This document shows, piece by piece, positions 8,458 through 15,062 of a stretch of DNA of 33,476 bases (its first letter is position 1; each line of letters starts with the position of its first letter). The notes below the pieces were generated by a model. It ran no database searches and was not told where the DNA came from. It was given only the letters and a program-made list of their open reading frames with translations. The translations under genes were made by a program, and so were the position numbers. Source of the stretch: a virus; the IMG/VR virus record IMGVR_UViG_3300032309_000791, positions 1 to 33,476 of that record. One strand, given 5' to 3'.

Positions 8458-10002
8458 TTATACCTCGCTGTTTGTTAAGAACGAAGACAGTGCGCCTAAG
8501 TTCAGTTGAAAGTTTCCCTTGTGGTCATGACCACCATCAACGAATGCTTTGTTGATGTTTCTTTTCTCTTGCAACATTTCGTATTGCCTCTCTTCAATAC
8601 TCCCCTTCATTACGAATGAGACTATGTTAACGTGCGGAAACTCAGATGACAACCTGATAATTCTGGCCTCTCGTTGGTCTAGTTTTCCAGCGCTCCAAGG
8701 AAGGTCATAGGAAATCAAATAGTTAGCCACAGGTAAGTCCACCCCGTAGCCACCAGCATCCGATGATAAGAACAAACGGGTGTTTGGATCGTTAGCAAAC
8801 TGTTGTTTTGCTCTGTCTCTAGACATCATATCCATACCACCCATAAACAAAACGCTGTTGGTTAGTCCTTTTGTAGCGTTTTGAATTAGTCGTAAATTGT
8901 TTTTAAAGAACGAAAACAATACAACTTTATTCTTTGGATCTTCATTTAAAACATCTTCAATGTACTGAAGCACTGCATCTAACTTAGGGGTGTTAAACCT
9001 CTCTGGAATAAGACCCTGTGCTACAACTTGAGAAGCATGCTTACTACCTTGATCGTTATTGTCGTCTAGATATTGCTCTGCGGATATCTTTACCAGTTCT
9101 GGGTTATCACAGAACATACGTAGGGTAGTCAATCTGGACATGACATCCCCCTGTGCTTCCATGTTCTTATTGTTTCCGTAATAGTGCGCCCACAAATCAA
9201 ACCCTCTGCCATGTTGGGTTATTGCTTTTTGAATAGAATCAAGCAAGTCATTAGACAACTTCCTATACACAGCAGCACCTGCGGAATCAAATGGTACTGG
9301 AATGAAGTGGTTGATTACTTGGGGCAACTGGTCTTGAATATCTTCACGAGTTTTGCGGACCATTACGTCTTGCATACTTTCATTTAGAGCCTTAAGATTT
9401 CGATATCTGCTTGGCTTACCAAAATGATCACGCACAATAAAGGTGCGGTCAAACACTTCAAACTTCCCAAGTACTGCTGGGTCAACAAACTCCATAATAG
9501 AAAACAATTCTTCTGGGCGATTCTCAATAGGCTGACCAGTGAGCGCAAACCTGTAATGGTATTTCTTACCTATGCGCTTAATGAGCCTAGAACGCTTGGC
9601 TCTTGGGGTCTTAATCATGGTTGCTTCGTCAACCACAATTGCATCAAACTTATGTTTTTCAAAATGAGCCAAGTCGTTAACTAATGATTCAGGGTTAACA
9701 ACAACGTACTTTGCGCTGAGTGCGTTACGCCATTCTTTCTTTCTAGCGGCAGCAGAACCATCAATAACAACGACATCAGAATCAGTAAACTTTTTAATTT
9801 CTCTAGCCCATTGATACTTCAATGCAGATGGGACTACCACAATTACTTTCTTTATCTCACCAGACTCAAACAACTTTTCTAGTGCAGCAATAGTAGTAAC
9901 AGTTTTACCAGCACCCATCACTAGGGCTAACAACATTTGACCACGGTCAACCATGAGTTCGGTTGCCTCTTCTTGAAACGGATAAAGTTTCCCTTTAAAC
10001 AT
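8458..10002 (-). CDS. SNF2/SF2-type DNA helicase or translocase (514 aa)
   Basis: The helicase motifs appear in order: MGAGKT (29-34, Walker A), VVVPSALKYQW (motif Ia), DEAT (125-128), ALTGQPIEN (153-161, motif III), LSSDAGGYGVDL (412-423, motif V) and QREARIIRL (443-451, motif VI). Motif III and the spacing are SNF2-like. Motif VI departs from the usual RxHRIGQ ending. Phage members of this group are thought to remodel forks or branched DNA. The gene overlaps the primase gene by 8 nt and belongs to the same operon. There is no extra nuclease or DNA-binding domain. Confidence 0.92.
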   Translation of the reverse strand: MFKGKLYPFQEEATELMVDRGQMLLALVMGAGKTVTTIAALEKLFESGEIKKVIVVVPSALKYQWAREIKKFTDSDVVVIDGSAAARKKEWRNALSAKYVVVNPESLVNDLAHFEKHKFDAIVVDEATMIKTPRAKRSRLIKRIGKKYHYRFALTGQPIENRPEELFSIMEFVDPAVLGKFEVFDRTFIVRDHFGKPSRYRNLKALNESMQDVMVRKTREDIQDQLPQVINHFIPVPFDSAGAAVYRKLSNDLLDSIQKAITQHGRGFDLWAHYYGNNKNMEAQGDVMSRLTTLRMFCDNPELVKISAEQYLDDNNDQGSKHASQVVAQGLIPERFNTPKLDAVLQYIEDVLNEDPKNKVVLFSFFKNNLRLIQNATKGLTNSVLFMGGMDMMSRDRAKQQFANDPNTRLFLSSDAGGYGVDLPVANYLISYDLPWSAGKLDQREARIIRLSSEFPHVNIVSFVMKGSIEERQYEMLQEKRNINKAFVDGGHDHKGNFQLNLGALSSFLTNSEV

Positions 10003-10930
10003 TTATCCACCAAGGTATTACTGATGCTTGCTTTATTGCCGTTAGCGTTTCGTCTTGAGTCATTTCACCGATGTCTTTTGCGTTCGTGTGTGCGTAGTGT
10101 ATATATTTTACACCATACCTAAACGCTGGTAACTGCTTTGTAATACGTTTTGCAGACTCAATCCCTGCCTCATCATTATCCATAGCAATAATTAACCCGT
10201 CAGCATGTTCGGATAGAAGACGTATCTGGGCCTTACTTACGTGTGCTCCAAAAGTTGCCACGGCACTTACCCCATCCATAACAGTGTCAACCCTGACTAC
10301 ATCTAACGGGGACTCAACAACCATTACAATCTTTTGAGAAACTTTGTCTAGGCCAAATAGCGTATCTGACTTCTTAATCCCGATTGGGTAGTTGCGAACC
10401 TGTGATGGTTCTTTCTCTTGCCACCCAAGCAATTCACCAAACGAAGAAACTATGGGAAGAATCCATGCTTGTTTCTTCTCATCAAACCTAACCCCATACT
10501 TCCTTGCAGACGCTCTATCAAGACCACGAGTCCACAACCAGTTGTCAGAGGGCGCTGGAAAAGAACTAAACACTTTCCAATCTACTTCTGGCTTTAACTC
10601 AGCAACAGGTTCTGTTGTCAATCTTTCAAGACCAGAGTTAATCAAGAAAGTATGTACAGCAATAATGCTGTCTGGCTCACCAGTAAGTTCTGAAACAAGG
10701 GTTGACAATGTTCCTTTAGCACCACAGGAATAACAAATCCACAAACCAGTGTTTGCATTCATTGACCACGATGGTGACCTATCTTCTTTACCAGTTCGTG
10801 CAGCGTGTACAGGACAACACCCAGATATTTCCTTCTCACCTACACGCTTTATGGTTACTCCTAACTGAGTTAGGACACCAGCAATATCAGTAGTACCAGT
10901 TGTCATTGTCCGAGTCATTATCATCCCCAT
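9995..10930 (-). CDS. DnaG-like DNA primase (CHC2 zinc finger plus TOPRIM, 311 aa)
   Basis: Residues 39-69 form a zinc site (C39-x2-H42, C66-x2-C69). A TOPRIM core follows with VESPLD (E206) and MDNDEAG (D251, D253). It therefore lays RNA primers, probably with the DnaB-like helicase whose gene it overlaps by 44 nt. At 311 aa it is short for a primase: there is no helicase domain and only a small C-terminal region. Several in-frame ATGs lie at the start. AGGAG is 3 nt before the first and 9 nt before the one at 10924, so the true start may be two codons later. Confidence 0.9.
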   Translation of the reverse strand: MGMIMTRTMTTGTTDIAGVLTQLGVTIKRVGEKEISGCCPVHAARTGKEDRSPSWSMNANTGLWICYSCGAKGTLSTLVSELTGEPDSIIAVHTFLINSGLERLTTEPVAELKPEVDWKVFSSFPAPSDNWLWTRGLDRASARKYGVRFDEKKQAWILPIVSSFGELLGWQEKEPSQVRNYPIGIKKSDTLFGLDKVSQKIVMVVESPLDVVRVDTVMDGVSAVATFGAHVSKAQIRLLSEHADGLIIAMDNDEAGIESAKRITKQLPAFRYGVKYIHYAHTNAKDIGEMTQDETLTAIKQASVIPWWINV

Positions 10931-12152
10931 CTTCTCCTACCTCTGTAAAGTCCATGTTGTTCCAGTCCCAGTTAATTCTGATCTCTCCTTGTGGGGCTGA
11001 ACGTGCAATGACTACACGAATGATTCCTTGGTTCTCAATATCTGGATCAGACTCAACTGCAATAACAAGGTCTGAGTCTTGAGCAAATGACGAGGTGTAA
11101 CCAATTGAGTCAACCGTTACCTTGCGTGACTTCTTGTTACCCAACTTCCATGAAAGAACCTGGGTAGTCCCAACAATTGGAATGTCAGCAGTCTGTGCAA
11201 GACGCTTTAAAGACCGAGTGATGTTTGTGAGCGCCTGTGGCGAACCCTTTGGTTCTCCTTGCTCGTCATCCATTAGGTACACACCGTCAACAAAAAGAAT
11301 GTCTGGCTTGTACTCTTGCACCTTTGCCGCAAGTGAACTAACGGTGGTGAGTGATGATGTGTCCTCAGTGATAACAAACGGATGCATGTTCTTACGCATA
11401 CGCAAAGTATTACGAACACGCTCAAACTCTTCGTCAGAAAGACTTGCTCGCAAGATGTTGCTGTATGGAACTTTGGCAACAATCGCATCGTAACGTGCCG
11501 CTTGTTCTTCTGCTGACATTTCAAACGAAACAAAAAGTGGGCGTTTACCGTGGATGTGGGCTGCGTTAGCCATCATCAACGTCATCAACGACTTACCTTT
11601 CTTTGCTTCACCAACAAATGTAATCAACTGTTGTGGGCGAAGACCCGAAGTGATTCTGTCAAGACCTTGAATACCTGTAGGAATACCACGAATAGCATTA
11701 GGCATCTTACGTAGTTCGTCATATTTTGAAACACGTTCTTCCCACTGCTCAATAAGGTTTACATCTCGTAGGCGAGCAACATCTGCTCCAGCCTTCTGTA
11801 CACCTGCGGCAAGCAACTTAAACGCTTCACTTGTGTCCCCAGCATTGAGTGCAGGCATCGCTGCTGACATGGCCTCAACAAGATTGCGCTGGCGGTAACT
11901 TGCATAGAGTTCATCTACCAATGCGGTAAACGGTTCTGGTTTAGCATCAATTACTTTGATGTCTCCAAACTCCATACCAAGCGCACGTTCAGTTGGAACT
12001 GACCCATGATTACGCCAGTATGAAGTAATCCATGTCCAGACATTCCCCCACTCTTTAGTGAAGTGTTCAGTCTTTACGCCATGCTTTAACGGAAAGGAAA
12101 TGTCTTGGTCTTGAATGACCTTACTGATTAGCAATTGTTCTGCACTAGCCAT
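10887..12152 (-). CDS. Replicative DNA helicase, DnaB-like (421 aa)
   Basis: The C-terminal RecA-fold domain carries GEAKKGKS (about 181-188, Walker A), SFEMSAEEQAAR and FVDGVYLM (Walker B, about 287-294). The sensor strand reads IPIVGTTQ, matching DnaB/gp41 ring helicases. An N-terminal helical domain precedes it. It would unwind the fork and recruit the neighbouring primase. I chose the ATG at 12152, which overlaps the previous stop as TAATG, over a GTG twelve bases upstream. The C-terminus is an acidic Asp/Asn-rich tail overlapping the primase gene. Confidence 0.93.
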   Translation of the reverse strand: MASAEQLLISKVIQDQDISFPLKHGVKTEHFTKEWGNVWTWITSYWRNHGSVPTERALGMEFGDIKVIDAKPEPFTALVDELYASYRQRNLVEAMSAAMPALNAGDTSEAFKLLAAGVQKAGADVARLRDVNLIEQWEERVSKYDELRKMPNAIRGIPTGIQGLDRITSGLRPQQLITFVGEAKKGKSLMTLMMANAAHIHGKRPLFVSFEMSAEEQAARYDAIVAKVPYSNILRASLSDEEFERVRNTLRMRKNMHPFVITEDTSSLTTVSSLAAKVQEYKPDILFVDGVYLMDDEQGEPKGSPQALTNITRSLKRLAQTADIPIVGTTQVLSWKLGNKKSRKVTVDSIGYTSSFAQDSDLVIAVESDPDIENQGIIRVVIARSAPQGEIRINWDWNNMDFTEVGEDGDDNDSDNDNWYY

Positions 12153-12592
12153 TAGGAAGACCACGCAGTCTTTGGTGAGACTACGGTTGCCCTAAGCCCA
12201 ATAAGTTTGTAGTGCTCCTGATCTGCAACATATATCTGCGTGATACCACGATTGATGCTGAGGTCATAAGCAAGTTCTTTGATGTCTTGAAATGAAACCA
12301 CGTTAGTTGAAATCCCCTTCTTAATTAACCACCTGTCAATCGCATCAGCGACTGGCGGAGGAAGCAGTGTATAAACCTCTGTACCGATACCCAACCTGTT
12401 TATTGAATCACTAAGAGATTTGATTGGGAGAGTATTTGGTTCCCACATTCTTAGGTACTGATCCCATTTTTCATTTCTCAAAAAGTATGCGGCTTTTATC
12501 TTTGCGATACCTTCAGGCTCTGAAGCAAGCACACCTTCAAACATTGTTGCTTGCGACTTTTGTGAAAACGATGACAGGTCATTTCGTTCCAT
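12152..12592 (-). CDS. Hypothetical protein between loader and helicase genes (146 aa)
   Basis: The ATG at 12592 overlaps the loader gene by 14 nt, and the stop overlaps the DnaB-like start as TAATG. An in-frame extension further upstream would run deep into the loader gene and is unlikely. The N-terminus is polar. The middle (KAAYFLRNEKWDQYLRMWE) and a C-terminal alpha/beta stretch (ITQIYVADQEHYKLIG) look structured. I do not recognise the family. Its position suggests a replisome assembly role, which is inference. Confidence 0.8.
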   Translation of the reverse strand: MERNDLSSFSQKSQATMFEGVLASEPEGIAKIKAAYFLRNEKWDQYLRMWEPNTLPIKSLSDSINRLGIGTEVYTLLPPPVADAIDRWLIKKGISTNVVSFQDIKELAYDLSINRGITQIYVADQEHYKLIGLRATVVSPKTAWSS

Positions 12593-13232
12593 ACTGAGTA
12601 ATTCGGTAATCCTTTCCTTCAAATGGAATCTGCAAGGTTGAGTCCTGGAGTATTGAAGATAGCCGTGGACCGTAAATTTTAGACAACGAAGCAATGCTGT
12701 ACTCCGATGTAACGATTGTGATCAGTTTCTGCTCGTACCTACTGTTAAACAATGATACAAGAGCACCCTTTGTAAATTCAGTCTTCTTTTCGCTACCAAG
12801 CCCGTCAATAACTACAACGTCATAGACAGCGTTTAAATACTTTAGCAAGTACTCATCACCGTATTCCATCGGGAGTTCACCATCATTGCGAATCTCATCG
12901 TAAGATGCCTCAACAAACTTCTCAGCAGTAATAAAGAAACCACCAAGTTTGTGCTTCTCCAATAACTCAGATAGCAAACCTGCGGCAAGATGAGTCTTAC
13001 CAGTACCAGTGGAACCGCACAGATACAAACCTTCACCATTCAAACGGTTCTCTTCAAAGTTTCCCATCCATCCACGAATGGCTTTAACAACTCCCCAACT
13101 ACCTACTTCTTCATCGTAGTTGTCTAAAGTTTTTTCAATGTATCGGCGTGGTATGTGTGCGTTATCCACACGTTCTTTTGGTTGTCGGTTGCGCCAGTAC
13201 CGAGAACCGTGCCACTCAGTATTCATCGTCAT
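12579..13232 (-). CDS. DnaC-like helicase loader ATPase (217 aa)
   Basis: This is an AAA+ protein with Walker A GSTGTGKTH (residues 73-81), Walker B VVVIDGLGSE (D143) and a later SEYSIASLSKIYGPRLSSI segment carrying the sensor and arginine-finger region. That is the DnaC/IstB arrangement. Its N-terminus would bind the helicase. In context (initiator, loader, helicase, primase) it most likely loads the DnaB-like ring at the origin. The ATG at 13232 has AAGGA 9 nt upstream; a second in-frame ATG lies at 13226. Confidence 0.9.
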   Translation of the reverse strand: MTMNTEWHGSRYWRNRQPKERVDNAHIPRRYIEKTLDNYDEEVGSWGVVKAIRGWMGNFEENRLNGEGLYLCGSTGTGKTHLAAGLLSELLEKHKLGGFFITAEKFVEASYDEIRNDGELPMEYGDEYLLKYLNAVYDVVVIDGLGSEKKTEFTKGALVSLFNSRYEQKLITIVTSEYSIASLSKIYGPRLSSILQDSTLQIPFEGKDYRITQYGTK

Positions 13233-13458
13233 CAATCAAAGTCCTTTCAACGCTCTTCTTATTTTCTTTGTAATACTTTTTTACGTAGTCTTTCATTGCT
13301 TGCAAATCAACTTGTGTTTGAACAAGCCAAGTTTCTGCTGATTCCCAATCACGCCACTGAAGAGCGATGTCGTACTCATGTCGTGATTCAAGATAATCAA
13401 CCATGATGTTGATTGCTTTCTTTTCACCCCTCAAGGTACTTCTCCAATCGTGGATCAA
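13216..13458 (-). CDS. Hypothetical small helical protein (80 aa)
   Basis: The protein is charged and aromatic (SRHEYDIALQWRDWESAETWL) and ends in a Lys-rich helix plus an acidic tail. It overlaps its neighbours at both ends: 35 nt with the upstream gene and 17 nt with the loader gene. The start is uncertain. The ATG at 13458 has only a weak ribosome site, whereas a TTG at 13434 has a well spaced GGAG. I do not recognise a family. Confidence 0.7.
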   Translation of the reverse strand: MIHDWRSTLRGEKKAINIMVDYLESRHEYDIALQWRDWESAETWLVQTQVDLQAMKDYVKKYYKENKKSVERTLIDDDEY

Positions 13459-13831
13459 ACTTCATCTCTTCAGAAGTGGACTGCACTGTACTACCTTGAA
13501 CACGCTTAAACAACTCACCTCGTCTGGCAGCAAACGCTCTCCAAGGTGTCTCTTGTTCTTTTAACGGTGTGCGCTTAATGTCATCAGCAAACAAATCAAT
13601 CATCTGATATATCTGATCATGTGTAACTGAGTCTGCAATCATGGTGCTAAAGATTTTCATCATGGCTGGCCCGTTAACTGGAGCGTTTAATGACATGGAC
13701 ATACCAGTCGTGCGGTCTTGAAGGTACATAACTAACTTTTTGAGGCTTGGACCTTTTTGTGGTTCAACCTTCGGCTTGTCTTCGTCAGCGCCGATTACCT
13801 TAACATCCCAGTCATCGTGTTTCTTTTTCAT
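13424..13831 (-). CDS. Hypothetical protein downstream of the initiator (135 aa)
   Basis: The ATG at 13831 overlaps the stop of the winged-helix gene as ATGA and has GGAG 5 nt upstream, so I prefer it to a start eleven codons earlier. The first 35 residues are highly charged and probably disordered. The remainder is helical (KKLVMYLQDRTTGMSM, then DQIYQMIDLFADDI). Some phages place a helicase-interacting protein here, but I see no motif that proves this. Confidence 0.8.
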   Translation of the reverse strand: MKKKHDDWDVKVIGADEDKPKVEPQKGPSLKKLVMYLQDRTTGMSMSLNAPVNGPAMMKIFSTMIADSVTHDQIYQMIDLFADDIKRTPLKEQETPWRAFAARRGELFKRVQGSTVQSTSEEMKFDPRLEKYLEG

Positions 13832-14343
13832 TCCGACTCCAAGTTTTTTATCTGGCGCATCCACCTAGGGTCTTGAAGCATAAACGTAGGAATTTTTCCA
13901 TCCTTTTTTCTGGCCCCCTCTAGAGAATGATTAGTCTCTATAGATTGGGTGTCACGGGAGTCACCCTCCGAGGGTGTCTCTGGAGTCACTAGGGGGGTGA
14001 CACTGGAGACACTATGGGGGGTGTCCCTGGAGACACCCTCCCTTGATTTAGGGTTGTTAAAATCCACGGTGTACAAGTTGGTTTTATTGTTGCCACCTTT
14101 AGCCCTGCGAATGGTCTTTCGTAGTACCCCCGAAGACTCAATGCGCTTCATGGCACGGAGTATTGTTCTCCTGTTTAATCCAGTCTTTTCAGCCAGATGG
14201 TCGTAAGACGTTGTGAACTGCTGAGTCTCATTGTCCATGTACTTCATTGCATTTATCAATACGCATAAAGCGATTGGATCATTTCCAATGTATTCCATGA
14301 CCCAACTTGGGATCGGGATAAATGTTCCACTAAACTTTGCCAT
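13828..14343 (-). CDS. Winged-helix replication initiator candidate (171 aa)
   Basis: Residues 1-95 form a winged helix-turn-helix: TSYDHLAEKTGLNRRTILRAM is the recognition region and LRKTIRRAKGGNNKTNLY the wing. This is the plan of phage replisome organisers such as lambda O and DnaD-like starters. Residues 103-133 are a Ser/Thr/Pro-rich linker encoded by four DNA repeats (separate entry). A short C-terminal segment (IPTFMLQDPRWMRQIKNLE) could contact the helicase loader. GAGGAG precedes the ATG, and the gene opens the replication operon. A transcription-regulator role is the main alternative. The repeats inside the gene favour initiation. Confidence 0.75.
   Translation of the reverse strand: MAKFSGTFIPIPSWVMEYIGNDPIALCVLINAMKYMDNETQQFTTSYDHLAEKTGLNRRTILRAMKRIESSGVLRKTIRRAKGGNNKTNLYTVDFNNPKSREGVSRDTPHSVSSVTPLVTPETPSEGDSRDTQSIETNHSLEGARKKDGKIPTFMLQDPRWMRQIKNLESE
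13881..14036. other. Putative phage replication origin (iterons plus T-tract region)
   Basis: Next to the iterons, on the downstream side with respect to the gene, 13881-13910 holds two T-tracts (TTTTT and TTTTTT). A 6-bp inverted repeat, TAGAGA (13921-13926) and TCTCTA (13935-13940), lies between the tracts and the iterons. Lambda has the same order inside gene O: palindromic iterons, then an A/T-rich unwinding element. The surrounding genes are initiator, loader, helicase and primase. No melting or binding data exist here, so this is inference from layout. Confidence 0.6.
13947..14036. repeat. Four 18-bp iterons inside the initiator gene
   Basis: Four units align without gaps: 13947-13964, 13972-13989, 13995-14012 and 14019-14036. 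The consensus is GGGTGWCNCKGGAGWCAC with 14 of 18 positions invariant. Each unit is an interrupted palindrome, GTGWC-N6-GWCAC, suited to a dimeric protein. Start-to-start spacings are 25, 23 and 24 bp, so unit 2 is out of codon phase with the others. The conservation therefore acts on DNA, not on the encoded linker. The pattern is that of replication iterons. Confidence 0.8.
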
Positions 14344-14382
14344 ACTTGTCTCCTCTTGTTTGTTGTGTTACGCTTTGTTTAC

Positions 14383-14404
14383 GGAAGGAAACCTTCATCC
14401 TTCC
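14383..14404 (-). promoter_or_regulatory. Nested inverted repeat upstream of the initiator gene
   Basis: GGAAGGA (14383-14389) and TCCTTCC (14398-14404) can form a 7-bp stem. Within the same bases GAAGG (14384-14388) and CCTTC (14392-14396) form a smaller competing stem. The two structures exclude each other. The site lies about 40 nt before the initiator start codon. It may be a leader-RNA switch or an operator; function is not shown. Confidence 0.35.
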
Positions 14405-14448
14405 TGCCACTCCGCTCCCCTTTCTGGCGGAATTGGCTTTATGGGATT

Positions 14449-14487
14449 GAGGGCGGTGGGTTTTTCTCTTCTTTGCCCACCGCTCTC
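14449..14487 (-). terminator. Stem-loop after the last gene of the virion module
   Basis: GAGGGCGGTGGG (14449-14460) and CCCACCGCTCTC (14476-14487) form a 12-position stem, with one imperfect pair and a 15-nt loop, starting 2 nt past the upstream gene's stop. No U-run follows on the minus strand, so it is not a standard intrinsic terminator. It may act with other factors or protect the 3' end of the late transcript. Confidence 0.4.
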
Positions 14488-14489
14488 TC

Positions 14490-15062
14490 CTATAACTGCT
14501 CAGTCTTTATAGAACCGTCAGAGTAAACCGTAATGTGCATTACAGGCTTTCTGACGGTTGGGGAATCCACAATGCGTGGGGTAGACACCACCTCTAGTTT
14601 TGGTGCATCCTGGGGCTTCCTAGGGGCCTCTGGGGTGCTATCTACGGTCAGTGGGGCAAGACCATTTGTCAACTCCAAGCAACTCAGGTTGCGGTCATGC
14701 GCTCCAAAAACTAAACTCTGAGTAAGGTCTGTTGCTTCCTTAGTCTCGTCTTCGTCATACAGGACAAGGACTGCTAGTGAATTCTCTGAACGAGTTTGGG
14801 CTTGAAAAAAAGCGTCTTCTACAAGGCTGTCTACCTTGACAATTGAATCGGAAGCCTGACCAACTGCTGGGGGAACTTTTCCAGATTCTGTATAGACCGT
14901 GAACTTTGCACTGTGGTCAATCATCCAGTCAAGGACTCGTGCCTGACCTGCGGTTGGTTTACCTGTCCACAAGATGTGAAACCAACTTCCTTTAAGGTCA
15001 CTAAGACTAGATTCAATTACGTTTGCTGATGCGTTACCAGTACCACCGATTAAGTAATCCAT
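14490..15062 (-). CDS. Hypothetical alpha/beta protein (190 aa)
   Basis: The first 130 residues alternate strands and helices (WFHILWTG, then FTVYTESG, then SLAVLVLYDEDE) in a Rossmann-like rhythm. The start reads LIGGTGNAS, but there is no full nucleotide-binding motif. From about residue 135 the chain is Pro-rich and linker-like, ending in a short strand. AAGGA 6 nt before the ATG supports the start. It is the last gene before the long gap. I do not recognise the family and cannot assign it to lysis, virion or replication. Confidence 0.8.
   Translation of the reverse strand: MDYLIGGTGNASANVIESSLSDLKGSWFHILWTGKPTAGQARVLDWMIDHSAKFTVYTESGKVPPAVGQASDSIVKVDSLVEDAFFQAQTRSENSLAVLVLYDEDETKEATDLTQSLVFGAHDRNLSCLELTNGLAPLTVDSTPEAPRKPQDAPKLEVVSTPRIVDSPTVRKPVMHITVYSDGSIKTEQL

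Follow-up and report, generated by a model that had tools for sequence, protein, structure and literature searches.

A candidate replication origin in the linker codons of a phage winged-helix initiator gene with an apparently separate loader-side partner

Replication origins that lie inside the genes of their own initiators are known from phage lambda (PMC5043065) and from the RepA_N plasmids (PMC5703833). In lambda, dimers of the O protein bind the iterons (PMC5043065); the reference origin used here occupies positions 39034-39118 of NC_001416, inside O. In plasmid pSK41, the N-terminal winged helix of the initiator binds four Rep boxes located centrally in its own rep gene. The linker of RepA_N initiators is encoded by the origin, and in pSK41 that linker is dispensable in the protein (PMC5703833). 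The plasmid pPR9, which joins a phage-like HTH_36 N-terminus and its own origin to a pSK41-type C-terminus, replicates (PMC5703833). One paper on mycobacterial prophages considers an intragenic origin for its RepA phages and describes no repeated motifs in the region examined (PMC7157519). For the phage group studied here, no published account of the origin was found in a literature search limited largely to open-access journals; the genome of a Streptomyces phage used below for comparison, BRock, has been announced (PMC7453282). An intragenic origin is therefore not new in itself. What distinguishes the present locus is an apparent split of the initiator over two genes, together with apparent loss or fusion in relatives, and because of these features it appears to be a variation on the known plan rather than a plain further example.

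The window, the whole stretch of DNA that was analyzed, is the 33,476-base virus record IMGVR_UViG_3300032309_000791 (positions 1-33,476). Gene calls and profile matches place all of its recognized genes on the minus strand. Identity between its capsid protein and the capsid proteins of six Streptomyces phage records, BRock and GiJojo among them, is 60.6-61.6%, and the helicase is 32-34% identical to the helicases of the same six records. Because both proteins resemble those of Streptomyces phages, an actinobacterial host is hinted at. The replication genes are as follows:

13828-14343, minus strand: winged-helix (HTH_36) replication initiator, 171 aa (Pfam, PHROG, AlphaFold model)
13424-13864, minus strand: small helical protein of 146 aa, probably the initiator's loader-side part (fusion in L047, match to BRock gp115)
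12579-13235, minus strand: DnaC-like helicase loader (phrog_50, E 3e-40)
10887-12164, minus strand: DnaB-like replicative helicase (phrog_19, E 5.8e-63; DnaB_C, E 7.9e-31)
9995-10930, minus strand: DNA primase (phrog_47, E 4.7e-42; Toprim and zinc-ribbon domains)

The initiator gene heads this cluster, with loader, helicase, and primase downstream on the same strand. A first-pass annotation, made from the letters of the window, had proposed this arrangement, and Pfam and PHROG agree with it, with small ORFs interspersed: two separate the initiator from the loader, and one separates the loader from the helicase. The order of genes is identical in the relatives' loci that were examined.

Four interrupted palindromes of the form GTGWC-N6-GWCAC had been reported inside the linker codons of the winged-helix gene, and both a repeat search and a pattern search find them there. 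In gene order, they are:

14021-14036, minus strand: iteron 1, GTGTCTCCAGGGACAC (repeat and pattern search, relatives)
13997-14012, minus strand: iteron 2, GTGTCTCCAGTGTCAC (repeat and pattern search, relatives)
13974-13989, minus strand: iteron 3, GTGACTCCAGAGACAC, in a reading frame that differs from that of the other three (repeat and pattern search, relatives)
13949-13964, minus strand: iteron 4, GTGACTCCCGTGACAC (repeat and pattern search, relatives)

Direct comparison of the four copies of the 18-mer GGGTGWCNCNGGAGWCAC gives 14 of 18 identical positions, and the spacing is 25, 23, and 24 on the plus strand (24, 23, and 25 in gene order), both as first described. The span originally given, 13881-14036, needs correction: the array itself covers 13949-14036, and the remainder is flank rather than repeats. 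With up to two mismatches allowed, the pattern GTGWCNCNGGAGWCAC has 8 matches in the window (four sites, each on both strands) versus 0.55 expected, and none of 100 shuffles reaches 8. The array is 88 bp long and occupies codons 103-132. Its first iteron begins at nucleotide 308 of the gene, and the protein terminates 39 aa beyond the array.

The initiator matches Pfam HTH_36 with an E-value of 6.7e-8 (32.7 bits; cut-off, 25), phrog_270 with 1.6e-16, and phrog_391 with 1.6e-11. In total, 13 PHROG families match it, the majority under the name replication initiation protein or O-like. The profile match covers the N-terminal domain, which places the protein among the HTH_36/PHROG 270-391 initiators. 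In the AlphaFold model, a winged helix spans approximately residues 11-95 (pLDDT 62-85 in ten-residue blocks). Residues 100-149, which hold the array codons, are predicted to be disordered (pLDDT below 50), and a C-terminal helix follows (mean pLDDT 60). The tail carries a DPxWxxQ motif, of which D158, P159, W161, and Q164 are invariant in 14 aligned sequences. A predicted disordered linker is the layout expected if almost any flexible sequence could serve as the linker while its DNA served as origin. When the PDB was searched by sequence with the winged-helix profile, no hit fell below E 0.03. By fold, the list includes 4pql, "N-Terminal domain of DNA binding protein" (Z 8.0, 101 residues aligned, rmsd 7.2), and 4pt7, "Structure of initiator" (Z 7.6, 100 aligned, rmsd 6.8). 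We take both to be structures of plasmid RepA proteins; equally high scores go to generic winged helices. Covariation between the recognition helix and the iterons was also considered. Residues 57, 59, and 62 covary only partly with iteron position 6 (NRR..L with T, GRS..I with A, SRT..I mixed), and no recognition code is claimed because two loci, L040 and L041, carry several iteron centers in one gene.

Conservation of the array was examined in relatives. A protein search identified nine IMG/VR loci, and repeating it with an alignment as the query recovered the identical nine. A search with the loader alignment gave 29 loci, 8 of them on contigs already found and 21 new. All of L029-L045, 17 of the new loci, have a winged-helix gene bearing the repeats upstream of the loader; the other four, L047-L050, have no match to the iteron pattern. 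Fifty pattern matches were obtained in a search of genome contigs, with no relative among them. The resulting set, window included, consists of 17 distinct genes and 16 distinct proteins with identities down to 47-49%; L009 ends before the array and was excluded from the counts. Every one of the 17 genes carries four copies at matching positions, some degenerate, with one strict copy of four in L005 and three of four in L040. The spacing on the gene strand is 24-23-25 in 15 genes and 30-23-25 in the remaining 2. Across the 68 copies, positions 1, 2, 5, 12, 15, and 16 are invariant, position 3 is kept in 67 and position 14 in 66, and the center is variable; positions 4 and 13 are complementary in only 53. 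Since the reading frame of copy 3 differs from that of the other copies, in the relatives as in the window, one DNA motif encodes different peptides.

Codon choice was compared in pairs among six clade representatives, wherever the two shared an amino acid. In these pairs, which are not independent, codons are identical at 195/231 shared residues in the iterons (0.84), 33/38 in the spacers, 70/85 in the flank after iteron 4 (0.82), and 90/155 in the C-terminal tail. The value for the winged-helix part is 382/891 (0.43), with 0.37 expected from codon usage. Deep pairs alone give 109/131 for the iterons versus 189/480 for the winged-helix part, and shuffling synonymous codons reproduced the array in 0 of 60 trials for each of the six representatives. 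The first-pass annotation had argued that selection acts on the DNA and had suggested aligning relatives as a check. That alignment supports the argument: the out-of-frame copy and the repeat codons are retained and the spacing is kept while the linker peptide drifts, so selection appears to act on the DNA. Eight records, several of them fragments, were also scanned for GTGWCN6GWCAC. Six hold 3-4 strict matches clustered at the initiator gene and no cluster elsewhere. The record of L005, G003, with its degenerate copies, has one strict match at the gene, and the eighth, that of L049, lacks this type of gene and has no clustered match. All remaining matches, 0 to 4 per record, are single.

These data lead us to propose, with a probability of roughly 0.85, that the product of gene 13828-14343 is the part of a lambda-O/RepA-type initiator that recognizes the origin, and that the origin consists of the gene's own linker codons. 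In the proposed mechanism, a dimer of the winged-helix domain would read each pair of GTGWC half-sites, as O dimers do on the lambda iterons, and four such dimers on the 88-bp array would wrap or bend the DNA. The resulting strain could help to separate the strands of the conserved flank behind iteron 4, which is moderately rich in A+T. The flexible linker, the DPxWxxQ tail, and the 146-aa protein encoded at 13424-13864 would then bring the DnaC-like loader and the DnaB-like helicase to the opened strands, with the primase acting after helicase delivery.

A first alternative is that the repeats are an operator, to which the protein binds within its own gene, so that transcription of the replication genes is repressed or modulated, with replication starting elsewhere. 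Many winged-helix proteins act as repressors, CodY and CRP are among the PDB fold matches, and no skew step is seen at the gene. However, the array lies approximately 300 nucleotides inside the gene, the gene heads a replication cluster and has replication initiators as its closest profiles, and lambda and pSK41 use the identical layout as an origin. The two roles can coexist, and we regard an operator in place of an origin as improbable. Less probable still is a row of small mRNA hairpins controlling translation or decay. Every copy is an imperfect palindrome in the likely transcript, and a separate hairpin with covariation lies upstream of the gene (see below), but arm positions 4 and 13 are unpaired in 15 of the 68 copies, including three of the four in the window. 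The window also contains no Rfam match at the gathering threshold, which carries little weight for a new element. Palindromic repeat arrays also mark partition, packaging, and recombination sites, and such a site could have come to lie within the gene by chance. We consider this equally implausible, because the copies sit at the winged-helix gene in 7/7 records holding that gene and because other O-like genes with a different N-terminus have different repeats. That no tested neighbor was recognized as a partition or packaging gene is a weaker point, as several neighbors match no family. A repetitive linker peptide has next to no chance of explaining the DNA repeats: the linker peptides are loosely repetitive, but copy 3 encodes other residues in another frame, codon choice is kept at 0.84, and synonymous shuffles remove the pattern.

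The initiator looks to be split over two genes, with a probable loader-side part encoded separately, a point absent from the first-pass annotation. The product of ORF 13424-13864 has no Pfam or PHROG match. In L047, a single protein of 216 aa joins a winged helix to a homologue of this product (35/112 identical, E 6e-12), and the L049 protein aligns with it in the same way. L041's version of the 146-aa protein has no significant BLAST match to L047. No repeats were found around the fused winged-helix genes of L047 and L049, the two loci among L047-L050 that were translated, aligned, and searched for repeats. Neither HTH_36 nor phrog_270 finds a match in the Streptomyces phages BRock and GiJojo. 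BRock gp115 (L012:1706-2164, annotated as hypothetical), two genes upstream of the BRock loader, is found by the 146-aa profile (hhalign probability 86, E 5e-6) and not by plain BLAST, and it is probably a distant homologue of the product of ORF 13424-13864; GiJojo gp100 matches the profile only at E 0.003. A model of the 146-aa protein has no convincing match in the PDB, where the best Z is 5.5 and the second rank, a chain of the DnaB-lambda P complex, is tied with proteasome chains. It has no match among viral structures at E 0.001 or below. This small helical protein is, we infer, probably what serves the initiator on the loader side, and the recognition part would be the winged-helix gene together with its array, as a unit that was either gained or lost. 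Because L047-L050 have no iteron match and BRock and GiJojo lack HTH_36 and phrog_270, the array appears to be dispensable across the wider phage group.

The first-pass annotation had described the locus as lambda-like in layout, with an N-terminal winged helix, four repeats in linker codons, and a loader gene downstream, and this description holds. Lambda O likewise has an N-terminal DNA-binding domain, four palindromic iterons in its linker codons, a less stable flank, and a loader gene downstream. In the placement and conservation of its candidate iterons, inside the gene and behind the DNA-binding domain, the window gene resembles the lambda O family. The differences lie in the details. 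The first lambda iteron begins at nucleotide 349 of O, compared with 308 in the window gene; the lambda spacing is 20, 24, 23, compared with 24, 23, 25; and the iteron sequences differ. Lambda O belongs to Pfam Phage_rep_O (PF04492, E 5.7e-36), for which the window protein has no match up to E 0.01, HTH_36 being its own family. O is one protein of 299 aa that includes its C-terminal domain, whereas the window has 171 aa and a separate gene for the candidate domain, which has no match to lambda O. Gene P directly follows O in lambda; in the window, the DnaC-like loader comes after two small ORFs. The RepA_N plasmids offer a similar comparison. The four boxes central in the pSK41 rep gene appear to correspond to the four repeats in linker codons here, but the window protein has no PF06970 among its Pfam matches up to E 0.01. 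RepA_N proteins are single-gene plasmid initiators of Firmicutes, whereas the window belongs to a phage and apparently has the second part in another gene.

The view that the protein looks unrelated to that of lambda finds no support in that form. The O-like families phrog_678 and phrog_345 match the N-terminal parts of both lambda O and the window protein, and a direct profile comparison of the window protein with lambda O alone gives nothing. The layout had been ascribed to either convergence or a wider principle. Other O-like phage genes bear out the wider principle, which was already published, and convergence is not favored over descent: remote common descent of the DNA-binding domain with that of lambda O appears at least as likely.

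Among these O-like genes, ST64B sb42, PseuP_222 O, and Bumble gp39 match phrog_270 and phrog_391. HTH_36 is found in the Salmonella phage ST64B, the Pseudomonas phage PseuP_222, the Parageobacillus phage JGon-2020a, and the Arthrobacter phage Bumble, the last at 24.8 bits, just under the cut-off of 25. All four genes have repeats in the codons behind the winged helix. In ST64B and PseuP_222, whose proteins are 26-27% identical to the window protein, the copies also read GTG...CAC. However, the four proteins are full-length, at 272-312 aa compared with 171 aa, and have other iterons. Two linker repeats are visible in Klevey, but the synonymous-shuffle test failed (5/60 shuffles as good). The linker repeats of Bumble gp39 (L057:3265-3333) contain CCCTCAAAAC, ten bases common to a lambda iteron (ATCCCTCAAAACGAGGGA).

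A survey of such genes used two seeds. PseuP_222 O has at least 599 relatives, of which the best 80 were kept, and Bumble gp39 contributed one locus, giving 81 loci (L077-L157) with 60 distinct ORFs. Drawn in this way from the relatives of one seed, these ORFs are kin to one another and do not count as independent cases. An earlier shuffle test had covered 22 of the 80 loci, hand-picked for spread, so all 81 were taken here. At least three copies, beyond all 30 synonymous shuffles, are present in 57/60 distinct ORFs versus 4 of 90 controls, which were drawn from 200 ORFs of those loci. One of the four positive controls, L148, has a spacing that resembles the opposite strand of an initiator array. 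The three failures are L080, L157, and L077 (3/30 shuffles as good; 0/60 in the earlier test). Ten genes (L142-L147, L151, L153, L155, and L156) begin to match the seed only at residue 118, 126, 152, or 162, with 63-81% identity. These genes have another N-terminus and a different palindromic iteron near TCGGAAAAATATCCGA, in 5-6 copies. In all ten, then, a change of N-terminus goes along with a change of iteron. The plasmid pPR9 has been described as a natural hybrid of a comparable kind (PMC5703833).

One explanation, which we offer tentatively and rate at slightly less than an even chance, is that the winged helix and its intragenic iterons form a self-contained origin cassette that both encodes and contains its own target and is plugged onto different loader-side partners. 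Recombination could hardly part the protein from its site, so that a change in specificity would come about through exchange of the entire cassette. The cassette would occur as a separate gene in the window and as the front half of a longer protein in lambda-like and Pseudomonas phages, and it would be omitted, with the partner kept, in BRock and in L047 and L049, whose fused winged helix is array-less. If protein and site do change as one unit, natural swaps could be used to pair DNA-binding domains with iterons. The apparent split of the lambda/RepA plan suggests that the two jobs of an initiator, finding the site and calling the loader, are separable by gene. A phage group known here mainly from environmental contigs also gains a precisely placed, testable candidate origin.

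T-tracts and a small inverted repeat had been noted after the array, and the flank 13881-13944 does contain T-runs and a short imperfect repeat, CTCTAGAG...CTCTATAG, which an automatic repeat finder did not list. The conserved elements of this region are:

13917-13944, minus strand: conserved flank after iteron 4, with imperfect inverted repeat and core AGANTAATC (codon conservation)
13929-13937, minus strand: core AGANTAATC directly after iteron 4 (present in 16/16 aligned genes)

The flank is a candidate part of an unwinding region, and the core is possibly a host-factor or unwinding element. Within approximately 110 nucleotides after the array, the least stable 40-bp stretch lies at locus percentiles of 0.81-0.997 in seven genes. 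The window, at 0.90, is a weaker case than lambda, at 0.999, and its A+T-richness is modest. The loader gene contains one further element of interest:

13162-13170, plus strand: single, perfect DnaA box, TTATCCACA, within the loader gene

GC skew was considered as support for an origin and rejected. The raw skew seems to shift near the gene in the 98-kb relative and the third-position skew is suggestive, but a scan of four-fold sites in four contigs, run at spans of 10, 15, and 20 kb, did not pick out the gene. At the 10-kb span, the gene shows no step (ranks 112/175, 135/176, 113/194, and 46/170). Each contig was handled as circular; overlapping ends are present in G003 alone. This 98,060-base contig, which lies behind L005 (L051-L055, G003), is probably a complete, circularly assembled genome because its final 100 bases recur near its start.

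A search of 14300-14600 found no sigma-70 promoter-like or terminator-like site. Upstream of the initiator gene lies one additional structure:

14444-14490, minus strand: conserved hairpin with AAGAAG between its arms (folding and covariation in relatives)

Its loop is 121-133 nucleotides upstream of the initiator start codon. From clade to clade, the stem varies in both arms but AAGAAG is retained, and the folding energy of the surrounding segments is -20.4 to -27.1 kcal/mol across 16 sequences, the window among them. In nine aligned sequences, among which L040 and L041 are apparently misaligned for this count, 4 of 8 pairs have changed on both sides. Against the hairpin, 49/500 shuffles reach this number of doubly changed pairs and 492/500 reach the number of pair types. 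Its covariation score, 0.285, is higher than in any of the 500 shuffles or any slid version, and the hairpin may serve either as a control element in a leader RNA or as a second element of the origin.
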